This document shows positions 4,813-22,760 of a DNA stretch of 26,684 nt, piece by piece (the first letter of the stretch is position 1; each line of letters starts with the position of its first letter). The translations under genes were made by a program, and so were the position numbers. This DNA comes from a virus. The notes below the pieces were generated by a model, which was not told the DNA's origin, searched no databases, and saw nothing but the letters and a program-made list of their open reading frames with translations. The stretch spans positions 1 through 26,684 of the IMG/VR virus record IMGVR_UViG_3300032322_001897. The stretch is one strand, 5' to 3'.

Positions 4813-6024
4813 ATGGCCGCAGTAACCGCACTAAACCTAAACCCAGGTATCACCAGTGATACCCAAGTTGGTGGTCGTGGAAGTTCTGAACAGCGTGGCT
4901 TTGACACCACGTTGACATTGATCTCTCGTTTAGAAGCAACCACACTGTCAATGATTGACCCCATCCAAATCCACGCACGTATTTGGGAATGGGAAACTGA
5001 CAGCCTACGTAACCCCAAGGTTAACGTAAACAATGGCTTCCAGTATTTCACAAATGGACAAAGTCCTACACAGCGTATCGTCCGTAACAACTACACACAG
5101 GTCTTTATTGGACCAGTTGAAACTGAAGGCACGCTGCGTCGTGAAGAAACCAATACTGGTGACGAACACGAGTATCAGGTAGAAGAAAAAGAAGCAGTGG
5201 CACTGGGTCGTGATATGAACCAGAGCTTGCTGTATTCTGCAGGTGCCAAAGGCATCACCTCAGGCGGCTCCACAAACCGCGTGATGGGTGGCGTTGCATC
5301 ATTTGGTCAAACCAACCTGAAGTTTGGTGACCTAACCACAGCCGCAGCCAATGCTTATCAGCAGTATACAGTTGCATTCAACCAGGCCAGCAATGGCAGC
5401 ACAGTCACACCCGCACTCACAGCATCAGGTGGTGTAGGCAACGTGGCCAATGCTGTTAATGATGGCACTACTGTTTGGATGGTGCAGGGCAAGTCAGGTA
5501 ACGTTGACGTTACCGCAGCCAACGTTGTTGTGCCTACCACAACCTACGAATTCACACGCAAGGCCTTGAACAAAGTGCTGAGCGATGCATTTGATGGCGG
5601 TGGTGCACCCACAAACATCGTGGTTGGTCCTGGACTGCGTTCAGTGCTGACAGAAGTGATTGCACGTGGTGGCGCCAATAACGACATCTATCGTGTGAAT
5701 ATGACTGATCCGTCTGAGATTATGAACACCACCAGTGTTTATATCACTGACTTTGGTTTCCGTCTCAGGATTGACACAGAGCAGCAGAACAAGCTGAGCT
5801 ATGGTGGTGATCCTTCAATGTTGCTGGCATTCAATCCACGCAACATCAAGATGGGTTATATCACGCCTGTGACACGTAACGATGACATTCCGCAGCCAAT
5901 CTACGGTGCAGCATCTGCTCTAGTAGCAGAAGCAACTGCTGTGTTCTACAACCCAGGAGACATCGTGATGTGGAAAGGTCTAAACTTTGACATCACCAGT
6001 AGTGCATACGCCAACATCGCCTAA
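4813..6024 (+). CDS. Major capsid protein, probably SU10-like (HK97 fold)
   Basis: The 403-residue protein follows the scaffold gene after a 20-base gap with an AAGGAG site, and is followed by a strong terminator, the usual setting for the most expressed head gene. The N-terminal arm with early RLEATTLSMIDPI, the YTQVFIGPVETEGTL segment, the Glu-rich helix with ALGRDMNQSLLYSA, and a C-terminal domain with IVVGPGLRSVL and ITDFGFRLRI fit the SU10-type major capsid family (formerly DUF5309) with an HK97-like fold. About residues 185-235 form a Gly/Asn/Ala-rich loop region that may be an exposed insertion. Capsid protein is nearly certain from context; the SU10 label is from sequence feel and should be checked by profile search. 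Confidence 0.87.
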   Translation: MAAVTALNLNPGITSDTQVGGRGSSEQRGFDTTLTLISRLEATTLSMIDPIQIHARIWEWETDSLRNPKVNVNNGFQYFTNGQSPTQRIVRNNYTQVFIGPVETEGTLRREETNTGDEHEYQVEEKEAVALGRDMNQSLLYSAGAKGITSGGSTNRVMGGVASFGQTNLKFGDLTTAAANAYQQYTVAFNQASNGSTVTPALTASGGVGNVANAVNDGTTVWMVQGKSGNVDVTAANVVVPTTTYEFTRKALNKVLSDAFDGGGAPTNIVVGPGLRSVLTEVIARGGANNDIYRVNMTDPSEIMNTTSVYITDFGFRLRIDTEQQNKLSYGGDPSMLLAFNPRNIKMGYITPVTRNDDIPQPIYGAASALVAEATAVFYNPGDIVMWKGLNFDITSSAYANIA

Positions 6025-6105: not shown

Positions 6106-6717
6106 ATGACCAAAACCTACAAAGAATCCAACGCCAGATCAGTGTTAAAAGACGGCAACAAAGCCTGGATGTGGCAACATACGATGAACAGTTTCACAGG
6201 TCTGCGCAAGCGATTGGCAGATATGCAGGCCGGTAAACTCAACCACTTCACATACAGCCTGCCCAATCCACAAAATCCCCGTGCACCTTTATACATCACT
6301 TATCAATATGCTGATGGTCACCTTTATACCACTTACAAGATGGATGATTCAGCTGTATGGGCCTGGTGTGAGCGACTGCGTGAAGAAGACGCTGAGATAC
6401 GCCGCAGCCACAAGCAAAATGCCGAACTGCCCATCAGAGAATACTACAAATCAACTTGGTTGTTGGAGGCCTACATCCTGCTGAAGTATGGCATTGATGT
6501 GTATGGCGAAAGTTGGAATGATCCTACCACTGCTGACTTCAAGAAGTTTGCTTGGATAATGGACCACGATGAGTTTGCCAGCCGATACAAGGTCACACCC
6601 TTGATGGAAACACGCGGTATGCCCAATCCTTTTGAGCGCATCACAGTGGCAATGGGTGATGTGGCAGCAGAACTGCGTGACAACCAACTGGTTATCAACA
6701 TAGGAACCACACAATAA
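6106..6717 (+). CDS. Hypothetical connector-region protein (203 aa)
   Basis: First gene after the capsid terminator, with GAGG six bases before the ATG and a one-base stop/start overlap (TAATG) with the adaptor gene. The product is a compact, aromatic-rich soluble protein (many Trp, Tyr and His; segments KAWMWQHTMNSF and STWLLEAYILLKYGIDVYG) with no signal peptide or membrane helix. I do not recognise the family. Coupling to the head-tail adaptor suggests a role in connector assembly or head completion. The conserved-looking start and dense aromatic content argue that this is a folded, real protein. Confidence 0.78.
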   Translation: MTKTYKESNARSVLKDGNKAWMWQHTMNSFTGLRKRLADMQAGKLNHFTYSLPNPQNPRAPLYITYQYADGHLYTTYKMDDSAVWAWCERLREEDAEIRRSHKQNAELPIREYYKSTWLLEAYILLKYGIDVYGESWNDPTTADFKKFAWIMDHDEFASRYKVTPLMETRGMPNPFERITVAMGDVAAELRDNQLVINIGTTQ

Positions 6718-7799
6718 TGGCCAATCGCGTCCCACTTCCTAATAGACGAGAACTTCAGACTCTCACAGGTCTCATCCAGGCCATCAAGTATCACCTGAAT
6801 GTCAGCAGCAATCAAATCATCACAGAAGATTCAGCCTTGGGTTACATCAATGCCGCAGAAGACATTGACCTAACACCACTCAAAACATTCTTTATGAAAC
6901 GTGCCGAAGTCATCACACTGGACACAGATGGCCGTTATCGCATACGTGATCTACAGTTTCCTATGACAGAACTCATAGGCTTATACTACAGTTATACAGA
7001 TATGTTCAACCAGCGTGTGTATCTGCAGTATGTGGATCCAGTGACCTTTGGTCAGGGTTATGCTGCATCATTTGCACAGGCCACCTACACCATTATGACC
7101 GACGATGATGGGTCCAATGATCAGATCATACAGGTATATCCAGCACCGCCCGAAGCCGAAATCGGCATTGAATACTACTGTGACTGGGCCAAACTAGGTG
7201 ATTTGACCACCAATTCAAGACTGCAACAGATTTCAATCACTACCACAGGTTCAGCCAATGCCAATGCCACAGTGGCATTCCAAACAGGCATCACAAATGG
7301 CAACCTGATGCAGGCCATAAGCACACTGAACATCACCACAGGCGCCACTGCCAATGGTATCAACAATGTGATAGCCAACGCAAATGTTTTTAACTTGATG
7401 TATGAAGGCAACTTGGCAGGCAACAACATAACCTATTGGCAGAACGTGCCTTATGGCAACGGTAACATAGCCATATTCACCAGCCCAACCTTTACATCAA
7501 ACATAGCCAACATCACTGTCACACCCAATGCCAACGTAGGCTTGACGTTTACCTTGGCCAATGTCACAACACCATTCATACAAACAGTGCAGACCAACTG
7601 GTTGTTATACAACTTCCCATACCTCTACTACTATGCAGCACTCAAACACGCATACAATGGTCTCAGTGACCAAGAACGCTATCAGTTTGTGGAGAAAGAA
7701 TTTATCAAAGCAGTGCAGGTATTCCAGCAGTTCACTGACCGTGCTGAATTTGCAGGTGCCAACCAGCAGAGTGACTATAATATGAACGTCAACTGGTAA
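6717..7799 (+). CDS. Head-tail adaptor, P22 gp4-like, with an Asn-rich insertion
   Basis: The N-terminal 165 residues (helical start, then IIQVYPAPPEAEIGIEYYC) and the C-terminal segment TNWLLYNFPYLYYYAALKHA with a following helix (about residues 293-340) have the pattern of gp4-type adaptors, which bind below the portal ring and connect it to the tail. In related proteins these two parts are normally adjacent (a Tyr-Tyr strand, then a (T/N)NWLL..YP..Y.YAAL helix). Here about 125 residues (roughly 167-290) rich in Asn, Thr, Ala and Gly lie between them and look like the fibre repeats downstream. Total length 360 aa is therefore well above the roughly 170-240 aa usual for adaptors. The start overlaps the preceding stop (TAATG). 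Confidence 0.75.
   Translation: MANRVPLPNRRELQTLTGLIQAIKYHLNVSSNQIITEDSALGYINAAEDIDLTPLKTFFMKRAEVITLDTDGRYRIRDLQFPMTELIGLYYSYTDMFNQRVYLQYVDPVTFGQGYAASFAQATYTIMTDDDGSNDQIIQVYPAPPEAEIGIEYYCDWAKLGDLTTNSRLQQISITTTGSANANATVAFQTGITNGNLMQAISTLNITTGATANGINNVIANANVFNLMYEGNLAGNNITYWQNVPYGNGNIAIFTSPTFTSNIANITVTPNANVGLTFTLANVTTPFIQTVQTNWLLYNFPYLYYYAALKHAYNGLSDQERYQFVEKEFIKAVQVFQQFTDRAEFAGANQQSDYNMNVNW
7215..7586 (+). other. Fibre-like insertion inside the adaptor gene
   Basis: This in-frame stretch codes for residues about 167-290 of the adaptor. It is rich in Asn, Thr, Ala, Gly and Ile (for example ANANVFNLMYEGNLAGNN) and lacks the aromatic/charged make-up of the flanks. Boundaries are judged from where the typical adaptor pattern stops and restarts, so they are approximate. 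Confidence 0.55.
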
Positions 7800-7811
7800 T
7801 CAGGAGGTCAA

Positions 7812-7982
7812 ATGCCATTACTATACACAGGATTACCAACACTAGTGCTACGCAGCCAGGATTATATTGTGCCCGATGCCACCTATGAATATGATTTTGG
7901 CGGCAACCTAATTTCATCCGCAGAAAACCAAGGCAACGTCACCATAGTGAATAGCCAATCCATCATAGATGAAGGTTCCTAA
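7812..7982 (+). CDS. Small hypothetical protein (56 aa)
   Basis: A 56-residue frame with an excellent ribosome binding site (GGAGG, 5 bases before the ATG) lies exactly between the adaptor and the giant fibre gene. The product begins MPLLYTGLPTLVLRSQDYIV and ends acidic; it looks like a small beta-rich protein, for it alternates hydrophobic and polar residues. Homologous small proteins before fibre genes are plausible, but I cannot name a family. The fibre gene begins 2 bases after its stop, so the two are probably translated together. Confidence 0.68.
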   Translation: MPLLYTGLPTLVLRSQDYIVPDATYEYDFGGNLISSAENQGNVTIVNSQSIIDEGS

Positions 7983-7984
7983 CA

Positions 7985-10900
7985 GTGCCCCAGTTATACA
8001 ATGACAACGTAGGCGAAGTCCTTAGAAAATATTCAGCAGACTCAAGTGTTACTGTGGGTCCTGGTGAATCCAATGTGTCTGCCACAGGCGTGCAGCAGAT
8101 CGTGGCAGGCAATAACATCACGATTAATCCTGCAGGTGGGCAGGGCGTGGTCACTATCCAGGCCAATCTCAGTGGCGCAATTGGTAGTTATTCAAATGCC
8201 AATGTGGCCAACTACCTGCCTGTGTATGGTGGCAACATTTTGTTTGGCAATCTTCTGGCGCCTGTTAGCAATAACTGGGGGGCAGGCATTCAAACCAACA
8301 GCAATATCATATTCTCGGGTGCCAATGTCGTAAATGCCAACAACTTATCAAATTTAACAACGTCGTTTAGCCTTAATGGCCTAAATCAAAAATACTACGA
8401 ATTATTTCAAGCAACCAATGTATATCAAAATGAAATAGAAATGGCCGGAGCAGGCCTTATATTTCTCAGCGGTTATGGTAACACAGCAAACAATCAAGCC
8501 AATAACGCTCTAACTGCAGCAGTGACAAGCACAGGTATTAGTGTAGAGTTCAATCGTGCCAATGGTTATTATAGGTTAATAAACCTGGATGCTGAGTCCG
8601 GCGGCATTGTGGCCTCAGATGAAAACGGATTGCTGACCAACATCAGCAATGGCAATATCATTACCACCGGTAATGTCACGGGCGATTATTATTTTGGTAA
8701 TGGTGCTTTCCTGTCAGGAATCTCAGCAGGAAATATCACGGGTGCATATTCAAACGCAAATGTGGCCAATTACCTGCAGGTTTTGACTTCAAATGTCACT
8801 ACCACCGCCAATGTGCAGGCCGCATATTTCATAGGCAATGGATCACAGCTCACTGGATTGCCTGCCAGTTACTCAAACGCCAACGTGGCTGCTTTCTTGC
8901 CCACTTACACTGGCAATCTGCAGAGTGGCAACTTGTTGGTAGTGAATTCAGCAGTGATACAAGGCAATCTCACAGTGCTGGGCAACACCACCACCATCAA
9001 TGCCAACACATTAAACATCACGGACAAAGATATCACAGTGGCCAACGGTGCTGTGACTCTGGCAGAAGCCAATGGCGCAGGCCTCATAGTGGGCCAAGGC
9101 AATCTGGCCAATATCATATTCAACAATCCGGCCAATGCCTGGACGCTGTATCCAGGCGTGTCAACACCAGGCAATGTGTCAGGCACCTACATCCTGGGCA
9201 ATGGCGCTTTCTTGACCGGCTTGGCTGCTACCTACAGCAATGCCAATGTGGCCAACTACTTGCCCATCTATGGAGGCAACATCTCAGCCAACAATGTTGC
9301 TGTGATCAGCAATGTGTCAGCTGCTTATTATGTGGGCAATGGTGCTTTCTTGACTGGCATTGCGACCAGCAGTTACTCTAATGCCAACGTGGCTGCATAC
9401 TTGGCCAGCAACAGTAATGTCATAATAACCACCACAGGCAATATTTGGTCAGACAGCACCATTCGTGGCCGATATGTCAATGCTCTCAGCGCACTCACAG
9501 TTGGAGATACAACTGGTGCAAGTTACAGTCAATTATTTAATGATGTATTATATGTTGGTAGAGGCACTAACGCAGTATCTCGTGTGGGAGTTGGCATTGT
9601 TTCTACCACTGGCAATGTGGTTGGCAACAATATCATAGCCAACAATTATGTGTATGGTAATGGCGCTTTCTTGACAGGCTTGGCTGCTACCTACAGCAAT
9701 GCCAATGTGGCCAATTTTCTACAGGTCCTGACGTCAAATGTCACTACTACCGCCAATGTGCAGGCCGCATACTTGATAGGCAACATTCGCAACACCACTG
9801 GTGGTTACGATGATGCCAATGTTGCTGCTTACTTGCCAACATATACCGGCAACCTAGCCGCCAGTTCAGACATCATAGCATTGTATGCCAATGCTGCCAC
9901 ACAAAGCAACGCAATAGCCAATTTACAGAGCAATGTCACAACATTGCAAGGCAATATTATTACCATAGACAGCAACATAGCCAATCTATATGCCAATGCT
10001 GCTACCCAATCAAATGCAATTATCGCTATTAACAGTGACATTGCCAATCTCACAGGCAATGCTGGTGAACAGGCCAATGCCATAGCCAATCTGCAAAGCA
10101 ATGTCACAACATTGCAAGGCAATATTGTCAGCATCAACAGCAACATAGCCAATCTATATGCCAATGCAGCTGATCAGTCCAATGCCATTGCAAACCTACA
10201 ACTGTCACAATATTCCAATGCCAATGTGGCCAACTATTTGCCTGTGTATGGCGGCAATATATCGTTTAGCAACATCACTGGCGTTACAAATGCCAATGCT
10301 TTTATAACCACTACAGCTACCACCGGTGTTACCAAGATATGGGCGGGTGCTGTGAACGTGGGCACAGAGGCAATGATCACTAACACTTTCCCAGTTGTAA
10401 GTGCGGCTACCAATGGCACCACTACTATTGTTCCTGGACAAATTGTGCTAACTCGGTTGGCAAATGTTGGATATGAGATTGGAAGTTGGACTGTTAATAG
10501 TCTGAGTTTAAGAGATAACAATTCAAATACCATTCCTGAGTTGATATTAATTTCTAGCAACGCGGAATATGGCGGAACCATAAGATCATTGTTAACTAAA
10601 CCAAATGGCATTAGAATAGTTGAAGGTTCAGGCACCGGGATCCAATTTGCCAATGTCAGCGCCAACTGTTACTTTGGCAATGGCTATTATCTAACAGGCA
10701 TACAAGCCAGCAACATCACGGGTGCTTATGGCAATGCCGATGTGGCCAACTATTTGCCCATTTATACTGGTAATCTTGCTTCCAGTTCGGATATCATAGC
10801 ATTGTATGCCAACGCAGCTGATCAATCAAATGCCATTACGATATTACAAGGCAACGTTGTCAATATCAACAGCAACATAGCCAACCTATATGCCAACGCA

Positions 10901-13738
10901 GCTGATCAGTCCAATGCAATTGGTTTATTGCAAAGCAACGTTGTCAATATCAACAGCAACATAGCCAACCTATATGCCAACGCAGGTGATCAATCAAATG
11001 CCATTACGATATTACAAGGCAATGTTGTCAATATCAACAGCAACATAGCCAACCTATATGCCAATGCACTTGATCAATCAAATGCCATTACGATATTACA
11101 AGGTAATGTTGTCAATATCAACAGCAACATAGCCAACCTATATGCCAACGCAGCTGATCAATCAAATGCCATTGCCAATCTACAGGCCAGTGCCTACAGC
11201 GATGCCAACGTGGCCAATTATTTGCCAACATATACAGGTAATCTTCAGTCAGGTAACCTCCTAATTGTAAACTCTGCTGTTATTCAAGGCAATCTCACAG
11301 TGTTGGGCAATACCACTACTATAAATGCCAATACTTTAAATATCGCAGATAAAGATATCACAGTGGCCAATGGCGTTGCAACTGCTGCAGAAGCCAACGG
11401 AGCAGGCCTCATAGTTGGACAAAGCAATCTGGCCAATATCATATTCAATAATCCGGCCAATGCCTGGACATTGTATCCCGGCGTAGCAACACCTGGTAAC
11501 ATCACTGGTAGCCACATCATAGGAAATGGTTATTTTCTCTCAGATATTCAATACACTAACATTACAGGTGCCTATGGCAATGCGCAGGTCTCTAACTTTC
11601 TACAGGTCCTAACATCAAACGTCACCACTTCGGCCAATGTTCAAGCTGCATATTTTATTGGCAATGGATCACAACTCACAGGCATACAAGCCAGCAATAT
11701 CACGGGTGCATATGGCAACGCCAACGTGGCAAATTACTTGCCAACTTACACAGGCAATTTGGCAGCCAGTTCAGACATCATTGCACTATATGCCAATGCA
11801 GCCACACAAAGTAACGCAATCGCCAATTTACAGGCGGCACAATACTCAAACGCCAATGTGGCCAACTACCTGCCCACCTACACCGGTGATATTAGTGCTG
11901 GCAACTTGTCGGTGACTGAAAGCATCTACGGTAATTATATCACTGCCAACATCAATATGGTCACCGAAGATCTTTCAGCCAACACAATTAATGTTGGCTC
12001 TAATCTCTTGGGTGCTGATGCAGACTTTGCCGGCAATGTCATCGTTGGCGCCGATGTCGTAGTGACTGGTAATGTAACAGCAGCCTATCACCTGGGCAAT
12101 GGTTATTTCTTGACCGGAATACAAGCCAGCAACATCACGGGTGCATATGGCAATGCCAATGTGGCCGCCTATCTCCCCACATACACAGGCAACTTGGCTC
12201 TCAGCAGTGATATCATTGCACTGTATGCCAATGCTGCTCAACAATCCAATGCCATAGCCAATTTACAGGCAGCTCAATACTCAAACGCCAATGTGGCCAA
12301 CTACTTGCCCACTTACACAGGCGATATCTCGGCTGGCAACATCACTGTGACCAATGACATTTTTGCCAACTACATCACAGCCACGCTAGATCTTTACACA
12401 GGTAATGTGGTAGCCAGCGAAGATATTAGTGCCAATAACTTCTCGGGCGGCAATATCAATGTTAATCAAACGGTGTCAGGCAACAACGGCACATTTACCA
12501 GCAATGTCACTGCAGCATTATATTTGGGCAATGGTTATTTCCTTACTGGCATACAGGCCAGCAACATCACGGGCGCATACAGCAATGCCAATGTAGCCAA
12601 TTATTTGCCTACATATACAGGCAACTTGGCTCTCAGCAGTGATATCATAGCACTTTATGCCAATGCTATTCAACAGTCAAATGCCATAGCCAATTTACAA
12701 GCATTACAATACGCAAACGCCAATGTCAGCAATTTCCTTGCAAACGGATTTGGCAGCAACACCATAACTACCACAGGCAACATACAGGCCGGCACAGTCA
12801 AAGGCACCAACTTCCAGGCTGTGAGCAGCGCTGGTGGCACACTGAAAAATGCCACAGGAGTCACACAAGCTTCGTGGGGCGCAGGCGGCGGTGATAACTT
12901 CTCCGTATCCGTTAGCACCAATCTAGATGGAGCCAATGCACAGATAGACATCAGCCCCACAGGCACTGGTCACGTGCATATCAAACCCACAGGCACAGGT
13001 GCCGTAGAAATTGCACCTGTCAACACCGGCAGTATCAACAATATGGTGATTGGCAATGTCACACCGGCTGCTGCCAATGTCACAACATTGGGTGCCACTG
13101 GTAATGTCACAGCGGCATACTATTTTGGTAATGGTAGTCAACTCACAGGCATAGCCAGTGCTTATGGCAATGCCAATGTTGCAGCATATTTGGCCAGCAA
13201 CAGCAATGTTGTTATAACCACCACCGGCAATATTACCACATTTGCCAATCTCAATACTAATAATGTTGTAGGAACACCTAACACCAACACAATTATCACC
13301 ACCAATGGTTATAACTGGACATTTGATATATTTGGAAATATAACATTGCCAGCCAATGTGTTTGGTTTCAAATATGCCAATGGCCAACAGGTAAGTCTAG
13401 GCGGATCATACAGCAACGCAGATGTGGCCAACTACCTGCCCACTTTTACAGGCAATGTGGGTGCCGGCAACTTGAACCTAACTGGCAATATCATTGACAC
13501 AGGTGCTATTGCTATCATCACTGGTGGCGCTGGCAATATCGCACTGGCTCCAAATGGCAGCAACATCATCATAGCAACTACCACTGGAGCCAATATCACA
13601 GGCACAGTCACTGCCACTGGTAATATAACAACATCGGCCAATGTGCAGGCTAATTATTTTATAGGCAATGGTAGCCAACTAACAGGTATCACCACCACAG
13701 TTGAGATATTCAATCCTTTCTTACTCGCAGGAATGTAA
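7985..13738 (+). CDS. Giant repetitive tail fibre protein (1917 aa)
   Basis: The start is GTG at 7985, the first start after an in-frame TGA at 7970, with AAGG about 9 bases upstream. The N-terminus (about 1-65, PQLYNDNVGEVLRKYSAD) is unique and may anchor to the virion. The rest is modular: about nineteen copies of a Y(S/G)NANVANYLPTYTGN-type element, about a dozen copies of a YFIGNGSQLTGI-type element, two arrays of heptad coiled coil (about residues 634-735 and 941-1053), and a 100-residue domain present twice. Such elements are known from fibre and structural proteins of marine tailed phages. The protein ends TVEIFNPFLLAGM with no recognisable cleaved chaperone. It probably forms a long trimeric host-binding fibre. 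Non-repeated, A+T-richer islands interrupt the repeats. Confidence 0.83.
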   Translation: MPQLYNDNVGEVLRKYSADSSVTVGPGESNVSATGVQQIVAGNNITINPAGGQGVVTIQANLSGAIGSYSNANVANYLPVYGGNILFGNLLAPVSNNWGAGIQTNSNIIFSGANVVNANNLSNLTTSFSLNGLNQKYYELFQATNVYQNEIEMAGAGLIFLSGYGNTANNQANNALTAAVTSTGISVEFNRANGYYRLINLDAESGGIVASDENGLLTNISNGNIITTGNVTGDYYFGNGAFLSGISAGNITGAYSNANVANYLQVLTSNVTTTANVQAAYFIGNGSQLTGLPASYSNANVAAFLPTYTGNLQSGNLLVVNSAVIQGNLTVLGNTTTINANTLNITDKDITVANGAVTLAEANGAGLIVGQGNLANIIFNNPANAWTLYPGVSTPGNVSGTYILGNGAFLTGLAATYSNANVANYLPIYGGNISANNVAVISNVSAAYYVGNGAFLTGIATSSYSNANVAAYLASNSNVIITTTGNIWSDSTIRGRYVNALSALTVGDTTGASYSQLFNDVLYVGRGTNAVSRVGVGIVSTTGNVVGNNIIANNYVYGNGAFLTGLAATYSNANVANFLQVLTSNVTTTANVQAAYLIGNIRNTTGGYDDANVAAYLPTYTGNLAASSDIIALYANAATQSNAIANLQSNVTTLQGNIITIDSNIANLYANAATQSNAIIAINSDIANLTGNAGEQANAIANLQSNVTTLQGNIVSINSNIANLYANAADQSNAIANLQLSQYSNANVANYLPVYGGNISFSNITGVTNANAFITTTATTGVTKIWAGAVNVGTEAMITNTFPVVSAATNGTTTIVPGQIVLTRLANVGYEIGSWTVNSLSLRDNNSNTIPELILISSNAEYGGTIRSLLTKPNGIRIVEGSGTGIQFANVSANCYFGNGYYLTGIQASNITGAYGNADVANYLPIYTGNLASSSDIIALYANAADQSNAITILQGNVVNINSNIANLYANAADQSNAIGLLQSNVVNINSNIANLYANAGDQSNAITILQGNVVNINSNIANLYANALDQSNAITILQGNVVNINSNIANLYANAADQSNAIANLQASAYSDANVANYLPTYTGNLQSGNLLIVNSAVIQGNLTVLGNTTTINANTLNIADKDITVANGVATAAEANGAGLIVGQSNLANIIFNNPANAWTLYPGVATPGNITGSHIIGNGYFLSDIQYTNITGAYGNAQVSNFLQVLTSNVTTSANVQAAYFIGNGSQLTGIQASNITGAYGNANVANYLPTYTGNLAASSDIIALYANAATQSNAIANLQAAQYSNANVANYLPTYTGDISAGNLSVTESIYGNYITANINMVTEDLSANTINVGSNLLGADADFAGNVIVGADVVVTGNVTAAYHLGNGYFLTGIQASNITGAYGNANVAAYLPTYTGNLALSSDIIALYANAAQQSNAIANLQAAQYSNANVANYLPTYTGDISAGNITVTNDIFANYITATLDLYTGNVVASEDISANNFSGGNINVNQTVSGNNGTFTSNVTAALYLGNGYFLTGIQASNITGAYSNANVANYLPTYTGNLALSSDIIALYANAIQQSNAIANLQALQYANANVSNFLANGFGSNTITTTGNIQAGTVKGTNFQAVSSAGGTLKNATGVTQASWGAGGGDNFSVSVSTNLDGANAQIDISPTGTGHVHIKPTGTGAVEIAPVNTGSINNMVIGNVTPAAANVTTLGATGNVTAAYYFGNGSQLTGIASAYGNANVAAYLASNSNVVITTTGNITTFANLNTNNVVGTPNTNTIITTNGYNWTFDIFGNITLPANVFGFKYANGQQVSLGGSYSNADVANYLPTFTGNVGAGNLNLTGNIIDTGAIAIITGGAGNIALAPNGSNIIIATTTGANITGTVTATGNITTSANVQANYFIGNGSQLTGITTTVEIFNPFLLAGM
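8912..9230 (+). repeat. Fibre module, copy 1 of a 100-residue duplicated domain
   Basis: Codes for residues about 310-415 of the fibre, including LNITDKDITVANGAV and NPANAWTLYPGV. A second copy with the same layout begins at 11237, exactly 2325 bases (775 codons) later. The domain type (KDITVANG...AGLIVG) recurs in fibres of marine phages. Confidence 0.75.
9884..10190 (+). repeat. Heptad coiled-coil array 1 in the giant fibre
   Basis: Units beginning YANA recur at 9884, 9989 and 10157, that is 105 and 168 bases apart (35 and 56 residues, both whole numbers of heptads). The residues (NAIANLQSNVTTLQGNI) place Ile, Leu and Val in a and d positions, as in a trimeric coiled-coil stalk. Confidence 0.7.
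10805..11168 (+). repeat. 84-base tandem array coding for 28-residue coiled-coil repeats
   Basis: The unit starts at 10805, 10889, 10973, 11057 and 11141, exactly 84 bases each: four full copies and a partial fifth. Each codes for 28 residues, YANAADQSNAITILQGNV then VNINSNIANL, which is four heptads. Copies are nearly identical in DNA apart from scattered changes and one variant (GLLQSNV in unit 2). Confidence 0.88.
11237..11550 (+). repeat. Fibre module, copy 2 of the duplicated domain
   Basis: Codes for residues about 1085-1190. The protein sequence closely follows copy 1 (INANTLNIADKDITVANG), but many third codon bases differ, for example Asn AAC to AAT and Thr ACC to ACT. That means an old duplication held by protein-level selection, or a copy taken from a related phage. 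Confidence 0.75.
11681..12720 (+). repeat. About 145-residue super-repeat in the giant fibre
   Basis: The block IQASNITGAYGNANVA...YLPTYTGN, SSDIIALYANA, QSNAIANLQ, then a second NANVANYLPTYTG, begins at 11681, 12116 and 12548 (spacing 435 and 432 bases, 145 and 144 codons). The first two copies each end in a different, less similar 60-residue stretch; the third runs only to about 12720. Confidence 0.75.
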
Positions 13739-13741
13739 ACA

Positions 13742-14071
13742 ATGACAATAGCATACAAAGTTTTGGGACAACTAAATCCCGCAGCCAACACACTCACTAC
13801 CATATACACTGTGCCCAGTGCCACTGAGTCGGTGTTGAGCACAGTGACCATATGCAATCTCAACAGTGTCAACGCCAATGTGCGATTGGCAGTGTGTCCA
13901 GGCAATGCTGCCATTGACAACAAACATTATGTTGTGTATGACAATCTGCTGCGCAACAATGACACATTGACCTTGACCTTGGGTATAACATTGGCCACAA
14001 CAGACACCATACGAGGCTATGGCAACTTGGCCAACATAGCATTCAACGTGTTTGGCAGCGAGATAGTGTAA
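13742..14071 (+). CDS. Conserved small virion protein (109 aa)
   Basis: The start lies 3 bases after the fibre stop, with AGGA about 9 bases upstream. The sequence MTIAYKVLGQLNPAANTLTT, then YTVP, VSTVTICNLN-type strand, NKHYVVYDN, then LTLTLGITLATTDTI and a final FNVFGSEI, matches a small all-beta protein that is common beside fibre genes in marine and T4-like phages, where it is usually labelled structural protein. I recognise the family pattern but not a proven function; it may be a tail or baseplate-associated coat domain. The stop overlaps the next start by one base (TAATG). Confidence 0.75.
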   Translation: MTIAYKVLGQLNPAANTLTTIYTVPSATESVLSTVTICNLNSVNANVRLAVCPGNAAIDNKHYVVYDNLLRNNDTLTLTLGITLATTDTIRGYGNLANIAFNVFGSEIV

Positions 14072-15096
14072 TGAGCATAAAATTAGTCAGCTCAAGTGAA
14101 TTAGAGCAGGGCCAAAAGAAACTCAGCAGCCTTACGCAATTTGGCGCCCCAGCATTCCTTAATTTTATTGTTGCCACAGGTGGCAACATCAGCAACGTCA
14201 CAATTGGCGGCAACAATTTCCGTGTGCATACCTTTACCACCAGTTCTAACTTGGTTGTGACTAGTGGAACAACCACGGATGCCAGTGTGCTGGTGGTAGC
14301 CGGTGGAGGCGGTGGGGCTGACCGAGATGGTGGAGGCGGTGGCGCAGGTGGTTTATTGCACTGGGACAGCAATGTGTCGCTTTCCACAGGCAACTATGTG
14401 TGCACCATTGGCTCTGGTGGCGCAGGATCACCTTACACAACAACAAACAATGCCCAGGCGGGCAACGTTGGCACCACGAGTTCATTCATAGGTGGCAATA
14501 TCACGATTACCACATCAGGGGGAGGCGGTGGTGGTGCTGGTGGTGCCAATGGATATAAACTTGCTACATCAGGTGGATCAGGTGGTGGAGCAGCAGCCAA
14601 TGCACCTACGGGCGCAGTCACCACAGGCGGCAATGGCACAGCAGGTCAAGGCAACAGAGGTGGTAATGTCACATCGCAAAATGCTGGTAGTGCTGCTGGA
14701 TATGCAGGTGCAGGTGGCGGTGGTGCAGGCGCCGTAGGAGCCAATGTAACATATACGCCTGCTTCGGGTCCGTCGGCCCAGGCCTTTGGTGGTCCAGGCG
14801 GCGTAGGTGCCAACATTGCTATCACAGGCACTGGTATTTTTTATGCTGGTGGCGGTGGTGGTGGAGTGCATAACTCCAGCAGCGGCACAGCGGGCACTGG
14901 TGGATCAGGTGGTGGTGGCAAAGGCGGCAAGCTTGTGGGTCCTGCCAATGCATTTGGTAATACTACCACTGTCGCCACCAACGCCAATGTGAATTCAGGT
15001 GGTGGTGGTGGTGGAGGCGGTGCTATTGATGGTGCCGGTGGCGCTGGCGGCACCGGCGGCTCAGGCATCATTATCATTAGATATCAGGTGGCATAA
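14071..15096 (+). CDS. Glycine-rich adhesin-like tail protein 1 (341 aa)
   Basis: The N-terminal 80 residues are ordinary sequence ending in FRVHTFTTSSNLVVTSGTTT and ASVLVVAGGGGG; most of the rest is runs of Gly with Ala, Ser and Asn, and the end is GSGIIIIRYQVA. This layout matches phage glycine-rich receptor-binding or tail-tip proteins. In the Salmonella phage S16 adhesin gp38, similar Gly runs fold as a polyglycine-II sandwich that presents variable loops; a similar fold here is inferred. The Gly runs are separated by short unlike segments (for example HWDSNVSLSTGNYV, THE likely surface loops). A related protein lies at 15481-16275. Confidence 0.72.
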   Translation: MSIKLVSSSELEQGQKKLSSLTQFGAPAFLNFIVATGGNISNVTIGGNNFRVHTFTTSSNLVVTSGTTTDASVLVVAGGGGGADRDGGGGGAGGLLHWDSNVSLSTGNYVCTIGSGGAGSPYTTTNNAQAGNVGTTSSFIGGNITITTSGGGGGGAGGANGYKLATSGGSGGGAAANAPTGAVTTGGNGTAGQGNRGGNVTSQNAGSAAGYAGAGGGGAGAVGANVTYTPASGPSAQAFGGPGGVGANIAITGTGIFYAGGGGGGVHNSSSGTAGTGGSGGGGKGGKLVGPANAFGNTTTVATNANVNSGGGGGGGGAIDGAGGAGGTGGSGIIIIRYQVA

Positions 15097-15097
15097 T

Positions 15098-15484
15098 ATG
15101 GCACATTACGCATTTGTTAGAGATGGAATGGTAGTAGATATCATAGTAGCCGAACAAGAATTTGTAGATTGGCTGTCAACATCTGGCTATCGCCAACCCG
15201 TGGGCGTGGGCAAATGGATACAAACCAGTTATAACACTCACGGCAATGTGCATAGCCAGGGACACACACCGTTGCGAAAAAACTTTGCAGCGGTAGGTTA
15301 TCTATATGACGCCGAAGCAGATGCCTTTTATCCACCCCGGCCCTATGATACCTGGGTGTTAAACACAGAAACTTATCTTTGGGAACCGCCATTCGCCGCA
15401 CCAGATGATGGGCAAATGTATGTGTGGGATCCACACACCAACAACTGGGCAGTGTTCAACTATCCTGGAGATCAACAAGCGTGA
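15098..15484 (+). CDS. Conserved phage protein near fibre genes (128 aa)
   Basis: I place the start at ATG 15098, one base after the previous stop (TAA at 15094-15096); a longer in-frame version from 14999 would overlap the Gly-rich gene. The product begins MAHYAFVRDGMVVDIIVAEQ and contains LRKNFAAVGYLYDAEADAFY, RPYDTWVLN, then LWEPP and WDPHTNNW. This is a known small phage family seen near fibre genes of cyanophages and other marine phages; typical members have FAxIGYxYDxxxDAFxxPxPxxSW. Function is not established, and roles as a fibre-associated or assembly protein are guesses. It lies between two glycine-rich proteins, which suggests that it belongs to the same adhesin unit. Confidence 0.78.
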   Translation: MAHYAFVRDGMVVDIIVAEQEFVDWLSTSGYRQPVGVGKWIQTSYNTHGNVHSQGHTPLRKNFAAVGYLYDAEADAFYPPRPYDTWVLNTETYLWEPPFAAPDDGQMYVWDPHTNNWAVFNYPGDQQA

Positions 15485-16275
15485 ATATCTCTCACACCAC
15501 TATTCAAGGCGGTGTAACTTTAACCAGTGCCGCAAGTTCTAAGATTATCACCGGTGGCAATGTATCTTACACTGGTGTTTATACTCTACGCACATTTACC
15601 TCAAATTCAAATTTAACAATTACTACAACTTCTAACGGCAATGGCATCAATCCGCAACTGGATCTAGAATATCTATTGATAGCTGGTGGAGGGGGTCACG
15701 ATTTTGCTGGTGGCGGTGCTGGAGGCGTTTTATCCGGAAACACAACATTATCAGCAGGCACTTACCCAGTTATAGTAGGACAAGGGGGCAATCGTGGCTT
15801 TGGTGGTGGCAATTCTACGTTTAATGGATTGACATCTGTTGGTGGAGGCAGTGTTATTACCAATGCAACTTCGGGTGCTGGTGGATCTGGTGGCGGCGCA
15901 GCTTCAATGAGGGGCCTTCCTCCTGCACCTGCGCCTGGACAATTAGGTGGCGCAGGCACCCCAGGACAAGGTTATAAAGGTGGAAATTCATTACCTACAT
16001 CAGGTGGCAGTTTTGGTGGTGGCGGTGGTGCTGGTCAGGCTGGACAGGATGCTGCACCAAATGATCGGTCAGGCGGTGGAGGCAATGGCATACAATCCAA
16101 CATCACAGGAGTTTTGACTTATTATGCCGGTGGTGGTGCTGCGTTTGAATCTGCCAATGCCTCCGGTTTGGGCCAGGACAATTATGGTGGTGGTAGTAAA
16201 TTTGTCTCTCCCAGCGCTGTAGATTCAAAACCAGGAGTTTTAATAATAAAATATCTCACAGAAGGCACAGCATAA
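15481..16275 (+). CDS. Glycine-rich adhesin-like tail protein 2 (264 aa)
   Basis: I choose GTG at 15481, which overlaps the preceding TGA (GTGA) and gives a product starting (M)NISHTTIQGGVTLTSAA; an upstream in-frame ATG at 15424 would overlap the neighbour by 61 bases. Like the 341-aa protein it has a short N-terminal strand region (YTLRTFTSNSNLTITTTS), then LEYLLIAGGGGHD, a long Gly-rich middle and a final KPGVLIIKYLTEG. The two therefore share a plan: entry strand, Gly-rich body, hydrophobic closing strand. It is less Gly-dense than the first and its DNA is visibly more A+T-rich, with codons unlike the neighbours (for example TTA and AAA), hinting at a separate origin. Adhesin function is inferred. 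Confidence 0.7.
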   Translation: MNISHTTIQGGVTLTSAASSKIITGGNVSYTGVYTLRTFTSNSNLTITTTSNGNGINPQLDLEYLLIAGGGGHDFAGGGAGGVLSGNTTLSAGTYPVIVGQGGNRGFGGGNSTFNGLTSVGGGSVITNATSGAGGSGGGAASMRGLPPAPAPGQLGGAGTPGQGYKGGNSLPTSGGSFGGGGGAGQAGQDAAPNDRSGGGGNGIQSNITGVLTYYAGGGAAFESANASGLGQDNYGGGSKFVSPSAVDSKPGVLIIKYLTEGTA

Positions 16276-16655: not shown

Positions 16656-18374
16656 ATGCCTGTTTTTAAATTCAAAGATTTCACTGGTGGTATGGTGCCT
16701 GATGTTTCACCACATCAGCAGCAGGAGCGTGAATTCAGTTTGGCAGAAAACTATCGCGTGCAACACCGTGCAATGGAAAAGATCGGTGGTCAGGTCACTG
16801 AGATCACAGGTATGCCATTGAGTGATCCTAACTTTATCACATACTGGGATCCACCTGGTGCGTTGAGTTATTTTGCCACTGCGTTGGGTGGCAACACATA
16901 TATCACACGTGGCAACACCAACGGCACAGCCATCAACACTGATTTGACAGATTCACGAGTGATAGCCAATATCTTTACCATTGGCAGCCAATACAAAACA
17001 CAGTTTGAAGCCAACGTGCCATCAGTGGCCAATACCAGCATCTATGTCAGCAACGCTGCTGGCACTGCTATCAGCAACACCACAGACTGGACCATAACCA
17101 CAACAGGTGGTGGATTCAATATGGTGTTGAACTGCCGTGAAACCGGACCACTGTATGTGGTGCCCACAGGCACGCAGGCTTTCAACCTACAGCAGTTGCC
17201 AGGTTGGCACAAAACATCAGCAGATGGAAACACGCTCACACAGCTGGTCACTGCTGACGTTATCTGCAGTTTTAAAGGTTATCTCGTGGCTGGCAATCTC
17301 AACATAGCCAGTTACCAAGCCAACAGTAATGTGTTGGGTGCTATAGAAAACTATCCCAGCACCATACGTGTGAGTGCCACAGCAGCACCAGGTTCGGTGC
17401 CACAGACCTGGGTGCCAGGAACCACAAACACAGCAGATGAATTTGAGTTGGCCACAACTGATCCCATACAGGATCTCATACCCAGTCGTGATGCTGTTTT
17501 GGCATTTACCAAAAACCAATGTTATACCATAGGCACCAGCACTTCTAGTGGCACACCTGTGTCAGCATTGAGCCAGGTGCGTGGTTTGCTGAACAAACGC
17601 TGTGCTGTCACAGTGGATGGATTGATATACTTTATCACCACAGATGACATAATGGTCACATCAGGTTCAGCACTGGATTTCAAATCATTGGTGCAACAGA
17701 CATTCCGTGATTATTTCTTCCAAGAGCGACTCAGCACTGTTTATTATGACAATGCCTTTGGTGAATACAACCGATACTACAACGAAGTCACTTTCTTCTA
17801 TCCCAACAAGAGCAGCACAGGTCTTTGCAATGAAGCCATTATATACAACATTACTGAACAGAGTTGGACACAGCGCACCATACCACCTTGCGTGGATGCT
17901 GTGTATGCTCCAACGTCAGGCAATCAATCAGGAGCCAACACACTGCCTTGGACAGGATTTAACACCGCTTATAACAGGCTGCACAGCCAGGTAGGAAACA
18001 CACTTTATGTTCACGATACGGAATACAGTTACCTTGGCAACGCAACAATCAGCACACAGTTCGTCAAGATCTTTGACCTTGAACAGCAAGGCCTTGATGC
18101 GACAAAGATCAAGAAGATCACGGCCATATATCCGTTCTTCTACGGCAATACCACTGCCCACATTGACTTTGTGTTCTCAAATACGCCGTTTGTTGAACCA
18201 GTTAATTTTGCAAATGCTGACTACTCCGGATCATTCGCTACATTGAGCGACTACAAGATTGATCCACAGCGTGGCGGCCGATACATTGCTATGCGTGTGA
18301 CCACAGATGACACCAACTATCACAACTTCAACAATCTTGATCTTGACATTGAATTCTTGGGAAGTCGTGGATAA
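16656..18374 (+). CDS. Tail nozzle protein (T7 gp12 / P22 gp10-like)
   Basis: The ATG follows the previous stop after 3 bases; the ribosome binding site is weak (GAGA). The N-terminus has FKDFTGGMVPDVSPHQ then REFSLAENYRVQHRAMEKIGG, the pattern GG(M/L)..D..P......A.N.....G...K..G found at the start of tail-tubular B/hub proteins. The middle (DPIQDLIPSRDAVLAFTKNQ, SGSALDFKSL) and the late segment NITEQSWTQRTIPP fit the beta-propeller core of nozzle proteins. At 572 residues it is near the size of P22 gp10 (about 470) and shorter than T7 gp12 (about 790). It should bind the adaptor and form the distal tube of the short tail. It lies between the two fibre genes. Confidence 0.82.
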   Translation: MPVFKFKDFTGGMVPDVSPHQQQEREFSLAENYRVQHRAMEKIGGQVTEITGMPLSDPNFITYWDPPGALSYFATALGGNTYITRGNTNGTAINTDLTDSRVIANIFTIGSQYKTQFEANVPSVANTSIYVSNAAGTAISNTTDWTITTTGGGFNMVLNCRETGPLYVVPTGTQAFNLQQLPGWHKTSADGNTLTQLVTADVICSFKGYLVAGNLNIASYQANSNVLGAIENYPSTIRVSATAAPGSVPQTWVPGTTNTADEFELATTDPIQDLIPSRDAVLAFTKNQCYTIGTSTSSGTPVSALSQVRGLLNKRCAVTVDGLIYFITTDDIMVTSGSALDFKSLVQQTFRDYFFQERLSTVYYDNAFGEYNRYYNEVTFFYPNKSSTGLCNEAIIYNITEQSWTQRTIPPCVDAVYAPTSGNQSGANTLPWTGFNTAYNRLHSQVGNTLYVHDTEYSYLGNATISTQFVKIFDLEQQGLDATKIKKITAIYPFFYGNTTAHIDFVFSNTPFVEPVNFANADYSGSFATLSDYKIDPQRGGRYIAMRVTTDDTNYHNFNNLDLDIEFLGSRG

Positions 18375-21455: not shown

Positions 21456-22760
21456 ATGGCATCATTAAACGATATATTATTTGGCGGAGGGTTAGCAGGA
21501 GCATTTGATGCAAATAAAGCTGCTAGGCAACGCTACGGCACCCTGGGGCAAGACGCAGCACAGCGTTTGGCTGCCATTGGTCGTGGTGAGGTGCAGCAGG
21601 GCATCAATCAAAACATCCTAGGCAGTTATCAAAACCCAGCGTTGGATGAAGCCATCCGGACCAGCCAATTGGCTGCACAGCGTAGATTCGCTGAACAGGT
21701 AGCGCCAGGCATACAACAACAGTTTGCTGGTTTAGGCACCTTGGGGTCGGGTCGCTCGGCAGTGGCCACTGGCATCGCACAGCGTGGTCTAGAAGAAAAC
21801 TTATCTGATATAGAAAGCAAGGCCCGACTCAATGCCTATGACAAAGCCTACTCGGCTGCTGTTAACGCAGGCGCAAATGAATTTCAAGCACGCCAATCTG
21901 CCAATCAATATCTAGCAGGCCTTGGCAGTCAAAACATACAAGAAGATACGCCCAGCAATTTGGCTGCCTTGATGGGCCTTATTGGTCCCGACAACATACG
22001 CAAAGCCTTGGGTGGCATCATAGGCGGCATTGGTGGCATACCACCCACAGGCAATCAAACAGGTGGCACTGGAGGCATTGGTGGCGCCATTGGCAACATT
22101 GGTGGAGCCATTGGCAAGGGTATTGGCAATCTCATAGGTGGTCCTACAGTTCCGCCAGGATTTGGCCAAGGCAAGTCAGGAGATGCTGATCGTGACATAG
22201 GTCCCATTGTGCCGCCACCAGGATTTGGCCAAGGCAAGTCAGGAGATGTTGATCGTGACATAGGTCCCATAATTGGAGAACCCGCGCCAGGATTTGGTCA
22301 AGGCAAGTCAGGAGATGCTGATCGTGACATAGGTCCCATAATTGGAGAACCCGCACCAGGTGTTCCTGAACTGCCCAGTTATGGTGGGGGATCAGAGGAT
22401 GGCGGTTACTACGGTGGCACAGGCGATTTGGGAGAGCCGATTATAATTGGAGGGCCCACACCTTTTCCTGAACTGCCCAGTTATGGTGGCGGATCAGAAG
22501 ACTATGGTTACTACGGTGGCACAGGCGATTTCAATATTCCGATAGAACCAAGTTTGCCTGTTGAACCACTTGACAATTTTGATCTGTTTGGACAAGAAAA
22601 CTGGTGGAATCAACCCACGCTACCCACACCGCCAGACAGCACAGAATTTTGGCCTGTAGATTCCAACAACAACTGGAACTTTGACATTGATTGGTCACTG
22701 CCAGATTTCAATTGGGACTTTGACGGTTGGTTTGATTTTGACTTTGGGAATTGGTTCTGA
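21456..22760 (+). CDS. Internal virion / ejection protein with repeats and an aromatic-acidic tail (434 aa)
   Basis: AAGGA precedes the ATG at 21456. Residues 62-145 (LDEAIRTSQLAAQRRFAEQV, then QQQFAGLGTLGSGRSA) form a helical domain similar in style to phage internal virion proteins. Residues 186-229 are a Gly/Ile run (GGIIGGIGG, GGAIGNIGGAIGKGIGNLIG) of glycine-zipper type that could insert in a membrane. Residues 234-300 hold three 21-23-residue repeats (PGFGQGKSGDADRDIGPI), followed by two 34-residue repeats (PELPSYGGGSEDGGYYGGTG). The last 63 residues (372-434) are a tail of Trp, Phe and Asp with little else. No catalytic motif is seen. An ejection role is inferred from the helical and glycine parts and from gene position. 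Confidence 0.7.
   Translation: MASLNDILFGGGLAGAFDANKAARQRYGTLGQDAAQRLAAIGRGEVQQGINQNILGSYQNPALDEAIRTSQLAAQRRFAEQVAPGIQQQFAGLGTLGSGRSAVATGIAQRGLEENLSDIESKARLNAYDKAYSAAVNAGANEFQARQSANQYLAGLGSQNIQEDTPSNLAALMGLIGPDNIRKALGGIIGGIGGIPPTGNQTGGTGGIGGAIGNIGGAIGKGIGNLIGGPTVPPGFGQGKSGDADRDIGPIVPPPGFGQGKSGDVDRDIGPIIGEPAPGFGQGKSGDADRDIGPIIGEPAPGVPELPSYGGGSEDGGYYGGTGDLGEPIIIGGPTPFPELPSYGGGSEDYGYYGGTGDFNIPIEPSLPVEPLDNFDLFGQENWWNQPTLPTPPDSTEFWPVDSNNNWNFDIDWSLPDFNWDFDGWFDFDFGNWF
22155..22355 (+). repeat. Three tandem 63-69-base repeats (PGFGQGKSGDADRD)
   Basis: Copies start at 22155, 22218 and 22287, of 63, 69 and 69 bases. They are almost identical in DNA in the PGFGQGKSGDADRDIGP part; the spacer is VPP in the first copy and IIGEPA in the others. 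Confidence 0.85.
22365..22568 (+). repeat. Two 102-base repeats (PELPSYGGGSED)
   Basis: Copies start at 22365 and 22467, 102 bases (34 codons) apart. Both code for PELPSYGGGSED(G/Y)GYYGGTGD and diverge in the last third of the unit. Confidence 0.8.

Follow-up and report, generated by a model that had tools for sequence, protein, structure and literature searches.

A putative sheath-type beta domain inserted in the SU10-type head-tail adaptor of an uncultivated podovirus

The head-tail adaptor encoded in the window, the 26,684-nucleotide stretch of viral DNA that was analysed here, appears to carry a beta domain of some 127 residues that folds independently and is inserted between the last strand of the fibre dock and the next helix of the helix bundle. 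Adaptors are commonly regarded as a conserved minimal ring, and an adaptor with such an insert extends a known part in an unusual way and is not a new kind of system. The adaptor gene is a single stop-free frame of 360 residues, which we divided as follows:

6717..7799, + strand: head-tail adaptor of SU10 type with inserted domain, 360 aa (PF24175, E 7e-11; PHROG 2941, E 7e-11)
6717..6893, + strand: N-terminal helices, adaptor residues 1-59 (helices of the AF2 model; 81-85% identity to all three relatives that carry the insert)
6894..7205, + strand: ordinary fibre-dock beta region, residues 60-163 (aligned to the beta region in adaptors that lack the insert)
7206..7586, + strand: inserted beta domain, residues 164-290 (profile alignment, tblastn survey and the orthologues L001, L002 and L003)
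7587..7796, + strand: C-terminal helices and tail, residues 291-360 (PHROG 2941 and 9nwi; AF2 helices 287-313 and 318-346)

The assignment to a family comes from both ends of the protein. Residues 15-160 matched positions 2-128 of the 194 in the Pfam profile SU10_adaptor (PF24175) with a score of 43.4 bits, above the curated cut-off of 27, and residues 265-353 matched positions 113-204 of the 208 in PHROG 2941. A weak match was also found between residues 290-348 and residues 141-199 of a head-to-tail adapter of solved structure (9nwi, E 0.008). The AF2 model of the full-length adaptor, built on an alignment of four sequences only, was of low confidence (pLDDT 50), and its top match with Foldseek was the SU10 tail chain 7z47_A (E 1.8e-3). 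The gp11 adaptor of SU10 (Kuravirus; PF24175; PDB 7z47) was thus recovered both as the family match and as the top structural match. A helix bundle plus a beta dock is indicated by the HH-alignment and by the secondary structure of this low-confidence model alike. The same two parts are known from SU10 gp11, with its helix bundle and fibre dock (PMC9509320), and from T7 gp11, with its four-helix bundle and beta fibre-dock domain (PMC6702177). On the strength of these sequence comparisons, the window protein is classified as an SU10/T7-type head-tail adaptor with a predicted helix bundle and fibre-dock domain. An earlier note on this DNA had called it a gp4-type adaptor; it was right about the adaptor (PF24175, PHROG 2941) and wrong about the type.

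The position of the insertion was defined by an HH-alignment against ten insert-less adaptors from cultured or complete relatives (196-234 aa), in which residues 11-163 of the query correspond to template positions 2-141 and residues 291-353 to template positions 142-204. Template positions 141 and 142 are contiguous in the relatives and, therefore, about 127 residues (164-290, nt 7206-7586) are inserted at this point. The N-terminal half gave a weaker HH match when taken alone; the Pfam match spans the same stretch. The insertion point lies after the last beta strand of the fibre dock (IEYYCDWAKLGDL) and before the helix NWLLYNFPYLYYYAALKHAY, where the relatives have a short loop of about 10 residues, a join that is usual in this family without defining it. 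A plain MAFFT alignment misplaced the dock and was rejected, and the profile alignment was used to locate the insertion point. The earlier note had proposed that two normally adjacent halves of an adaptor are split by about 125 residues at 7215-7586, close to the limits found here, and had suggested an alignment to gp4-type adaptors as a check: the HH-alignment supports this proposal, since the halves are contiguous in the templates and the insert is left unmatched.

Other adaptors point to the same conclusion. Searches by tblastn with three insert-less adaptors revealed no insertion of this size among the matches listed (up to 60 of 268, 56 and 179), which are single pieces with lengths within about 25 residues of the query, many of the records being near-duplicates. 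Adaptors of the LUZ24/PaP3 type (PHROG 2941; PDB 9nwi), whose C-terminal helices align in sequence with those of the window adaptor, have 196-234 aa in the ten that were aligned and a short loop where the window has the insert. SU10 gp11 has about 220 aa, in contrast to the 360 aa of the window adaptor, and its dock leads to the next helix with no domain in between, and a second inserted beta domain is not described for T7 gp11, which was compared by description. Our literature search found no adaptor into which a further beta domain is inserted and no description of such a recruited-domain architecture, which does not in itself prove that there is none.

Scans of viral contigs identified the insert in four uncultivated viruses: the window virus, L001 (94% identity to the window) and L002 and L003 (best segment 52% identical). 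Scans of genome contigs yielded no insert-bearing homologue, scans based on the portal added two contigs that were too short to hold a complete adaptor, and an HMM of the insert run over the fetched loci retrieved no further copies, reversed decoys scoring equally high. Between the window and L001, dN/dS was 0.065 for the insert and 0.056 and 0.026 for its flanks (dS ~0.8). The value of the insert is near those of the flanks, and we conclude that it is translated and under constraint. When the clades are compared, the insert keeps 34% identity, whereas its flanks keep 61% and 66-69%, a quicker divergence of the kind that an exposed domain would show. The dock (residues 60-163) is 99% identical to that of L001 and 48-50% identical to those of L002 and L003; the dock and the insert thus differ between clades while the N-terminal helices remain more than 80% identical.

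A sheath-type domain was suspected from the sequence pattern ahead of the fold search. The insert of L003, modelled alone with three relatives, gave a compact model (pLDDT 75.6, pTM 0.72) with the strand order b1-b2-b3-a-b4-b5-b6-b7. When this model was compared to the PDB with Foldseek, ranks 1-4 were taken by tail-sheath chains of Milano, ranks 5 and 7 by the Mu sheath and rank 6 by a flagellin of P. aeruginosa. The five best matches are all sheath proteins (prob 1.00, TM 0.50-0.60, E 2.5e-3 and above), led by the Milano sheath 8foy (E 2.5e-3, prob 1.00, TM 0.60, 24% identity). The accessory domain of the tail sheath (Milano 8foy and Mu gp39 9khy) and the flagellin FliC (4nx9) cover nearly the whole insert model with a prob of 0.99-1.00. 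Matches in BFVD were tail-sheath proteins, together with a fibre hinge connector and several phage proteins that are uncharacterised. At the sequence level, the tail-sheath family PHROG 165 matched insert residues 9-111 (E 0.007), the insert of L003 ranked first of 196 against residues 119-217 of the IPK sheath (z 7.5), and the insert of L002 took ranks 1 and 2 against two sheaths (z 4.3-5.5), the first of these alignments being out of register. The window's own insert had no sequence match to sheaths, sheath domains aligned weakly with the insert in HH-alignments, the Pfam search of the insert returned nothing convincing and the search of PDB sequences returned chance-level matches only. One further locus (L030) was a chance match of a DNA pattern and served solely as a source of sheath sequence. 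No single one of these values is decisive but, because the fold matches and the sequence matches add up together, it is probable that the insert has a fold of the tail-sheath/flagellin type.

Domain III of the Mu sheath projects outward (PMC11915804), and the usual position of accessory sheath domains is away from the tube (PMC9230969). By analogy, the sheath region matched by the insert would be such an outward accessory domain. Known sheath/flagellin domains sit in a contractile sheath or a flagellar filament, whereas the domain in the window sits in an adaptor, and no sheath gene was seen there.

The genes around the adaptor provide the setting for a possible role. The features needed here are:

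7812-7982: ORF of 56 codons between the adaptor and fibre genes of the window
7985..13738, + strand: long Asn-rich repeat fibre, 1917 aa (ORF and repeats; second ORF 3' of the adaptor)
16656..18374, + strand: nozzle-type protein, 572 aa (PHROG 3287, E 4.7e-44)

Pfam identified an SU10-type portal (E 1.5e-68) and an SU10-type major capsid protein (E 1e-25) as neighbours of the adaptor, and tblastn matches to the nozzle-type protein were found in 238 phage records, including Salmonella phage 7-11 and its relatives. The adaptor gene lies in the order portal, scaffold, capsid, adaptor, fibre and nozzle, with SU10_portal, SU10_MCP and PHROG 3287 around it. The SU10-type portal, the SU10-type capsid and the nozzle-type neighbour indicate that the window is the structural module of an uncultivated podovirus. 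This virus is distantly related to kuraviruses, LUZ24-like phages and Pelagibacter phage HTVC106P. SU10 shares the order portal, capsid, adaptor, long fibre and nozzle, and its gp11 adaptor is followed by the long fibre gp12, similar to the order of adaptor and fibre in the window (PMC9509320). A long fibre gene is located 3' of the adaptor in all four genomes, and this order was seen in L005, L006 and L007 as in the window. The 1917-aa Asn-rich fibre is a candidate docking partner of the adaptor.

Several other features of these loci were observed. A 203-aa protein without significant family match in Pfam or PHROG is encoded between the capsid and adaptor genes (6106-6717) and is kept in L005 and L007. 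The SU10-type major capsid protein (4813-6024) presents about 40-80 extra residues rich in N/T/A/V at positions ~165-245, where relatives have a short loop, and this extra stretch is longer in the window than in L007. L007 also encodes, immediately 5' of its adaptor gene (7405-8001), a 198-aa ORF absent from the window that, judged by eye, resembles a GIY-YIG homing endonuclease; Pfam gave no match for it. In the window, two Gly-rich proteins (Pfam Gly_rich_2; 14071-15096 and 15424-16275) are encoded after the long fibre and before the nozzle-type gene, and a 434-aa protein with repeats of PGFGQGKSGDADRDIGPI type is encoded at 21456-22760.

The adaptors of T7 and SU10 form twelve-subunit rings with a helix bundle that lines the channel and an outer beta fibre dock (PMC6702177, PMC9509320), and each long fibre of SU10 is held through its N-terminus by a pair of adjacent docks (PMC9509320). 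The insert of the window adaptor is an addition, since the ordinary fibre dock is still predicted there (residues 60-163). Because the chain leaves where the dock returns to the bundle, the insert would be expected next to the dock on the outer side. By analogy, a ring of twelve subunits on the portal clip would then bear twelve extra copies of the domain outside the neck, around the roots of the fibres, so that the crown proposed in the earlier note, for docking fibres or binding hosts, is plausible. We infer the outward position, the twelve-fold ring and the function of the insert, the full-length model having a pLDDT of 50. The inserted domain may widen the site at which the long Asn-rich fibre, encoded downstream, attaches, and we see an even chance that it does so. 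This role is favoured by a parallel between fibre, dock and insert: the fibre N-termini resemble one another inside each clade and diverge from one clade to the other along with the dock and the insert, a covariation that amounts to one clade contrast. It counts against this role that SU10 and T7 hold long fibres without any such domain.

Alternatively, it is possible, if somewhat doubtful, that the domain is a neck decoration or a weak adhesion module that stabilises the neck or binds glycans of the host surface without contacting the fibre. Its type of fold is that of accessory sheath domains, which have been proposed to stabilise virions or to aid adhesion (PMC9230969), and its quick divergence and low charge suit an exposed surface. 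However, the Pfam search of the insert gave no match to a carbohydrate-binding family, and the location beside the dock and the divergence in step with it favour a role with the fibre. We consider it improbable that the insert is an enlarged dock within the normal adaptor fold and not a separate domain. The final strand of the dock runs straight into the insert, whose own first strand might pair with the dock sheet, but the relatives align contiguously without it and the insert of L003 folds alone with a complete strand order. The earlier view of a separate domain outside the usual adaptor fold therefore holds, based on the profile alignment, the tblastn survey and the folding of the L003 insert alone.

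The composition of the insert raises the possibility that it is a copied piece of the phage's own repetitive fibre. The insert is indeed rich in Asn, Thr, Gly and Ala, as noted earlier: Asn makes up 18.1% of it and N/T/G/A together 55%, whereas the remainder of the adaptor has 6.0% and 25.8%; only 1.6% of its residues are charged and it has no Cys. The long downstream fibre has 15.6% Asn, and local alignments of the window insert to this fibre scored higher than shuffled sequences (z 4.5-5.2), with one pair at E 0.005 in BLASTP. However, the BLASTP alignments consist of gapped Asn motifs of low complexity, and Asn-richness is limited to the window genome and its nearest relative, as the orthologous inserts of L002 and L003 have only 3-4% Asn. 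The insert of L003 has no match to the fibre of its own genome, the insert HMM found no copy in any fibre, the HH-alignment of the insert to the C-terminus of the L005 fibre was weak and the predicted fold is sheath-like. Because the L002 and L003 inserts are Asn-poor and that of L003 lacks a fibre match, we prefer shared composition to descent from a fibre, a descent that is very improbable and largely refuted. The earlier description of the insert as fibre-like thus applies to its composition in the window and extends neither to the L002 and L003 inserts nor to the fold, which is sheath/flagellin-like. Asn-rich composition by itself is insufficient to call a fibre domain. Finally, a conserved protein interrupted at a single point could reflect a spliced element (an intron excised before translation or an intein excised after it), but this can hardly be maintained given no Rfam intron match in the window, no intein family among the Pfam matches, no Cys in the window copy, purifying selection at the protein level and a sheath-like fold.

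Taken as a whole, the reading that a surface domain of sheath/flagellin type was recruited into a podovirus adaptor, where twelve copies would serve fibre docking or host binding, is put forward tentatively. If the domain moved from the repertoire of sheaths or fibres, the neck too would be open to domain shuffling. The insert constitutes a defined and separable domain beside the dock with which ideas about fibre attachment may be tested in uncultivated phages.
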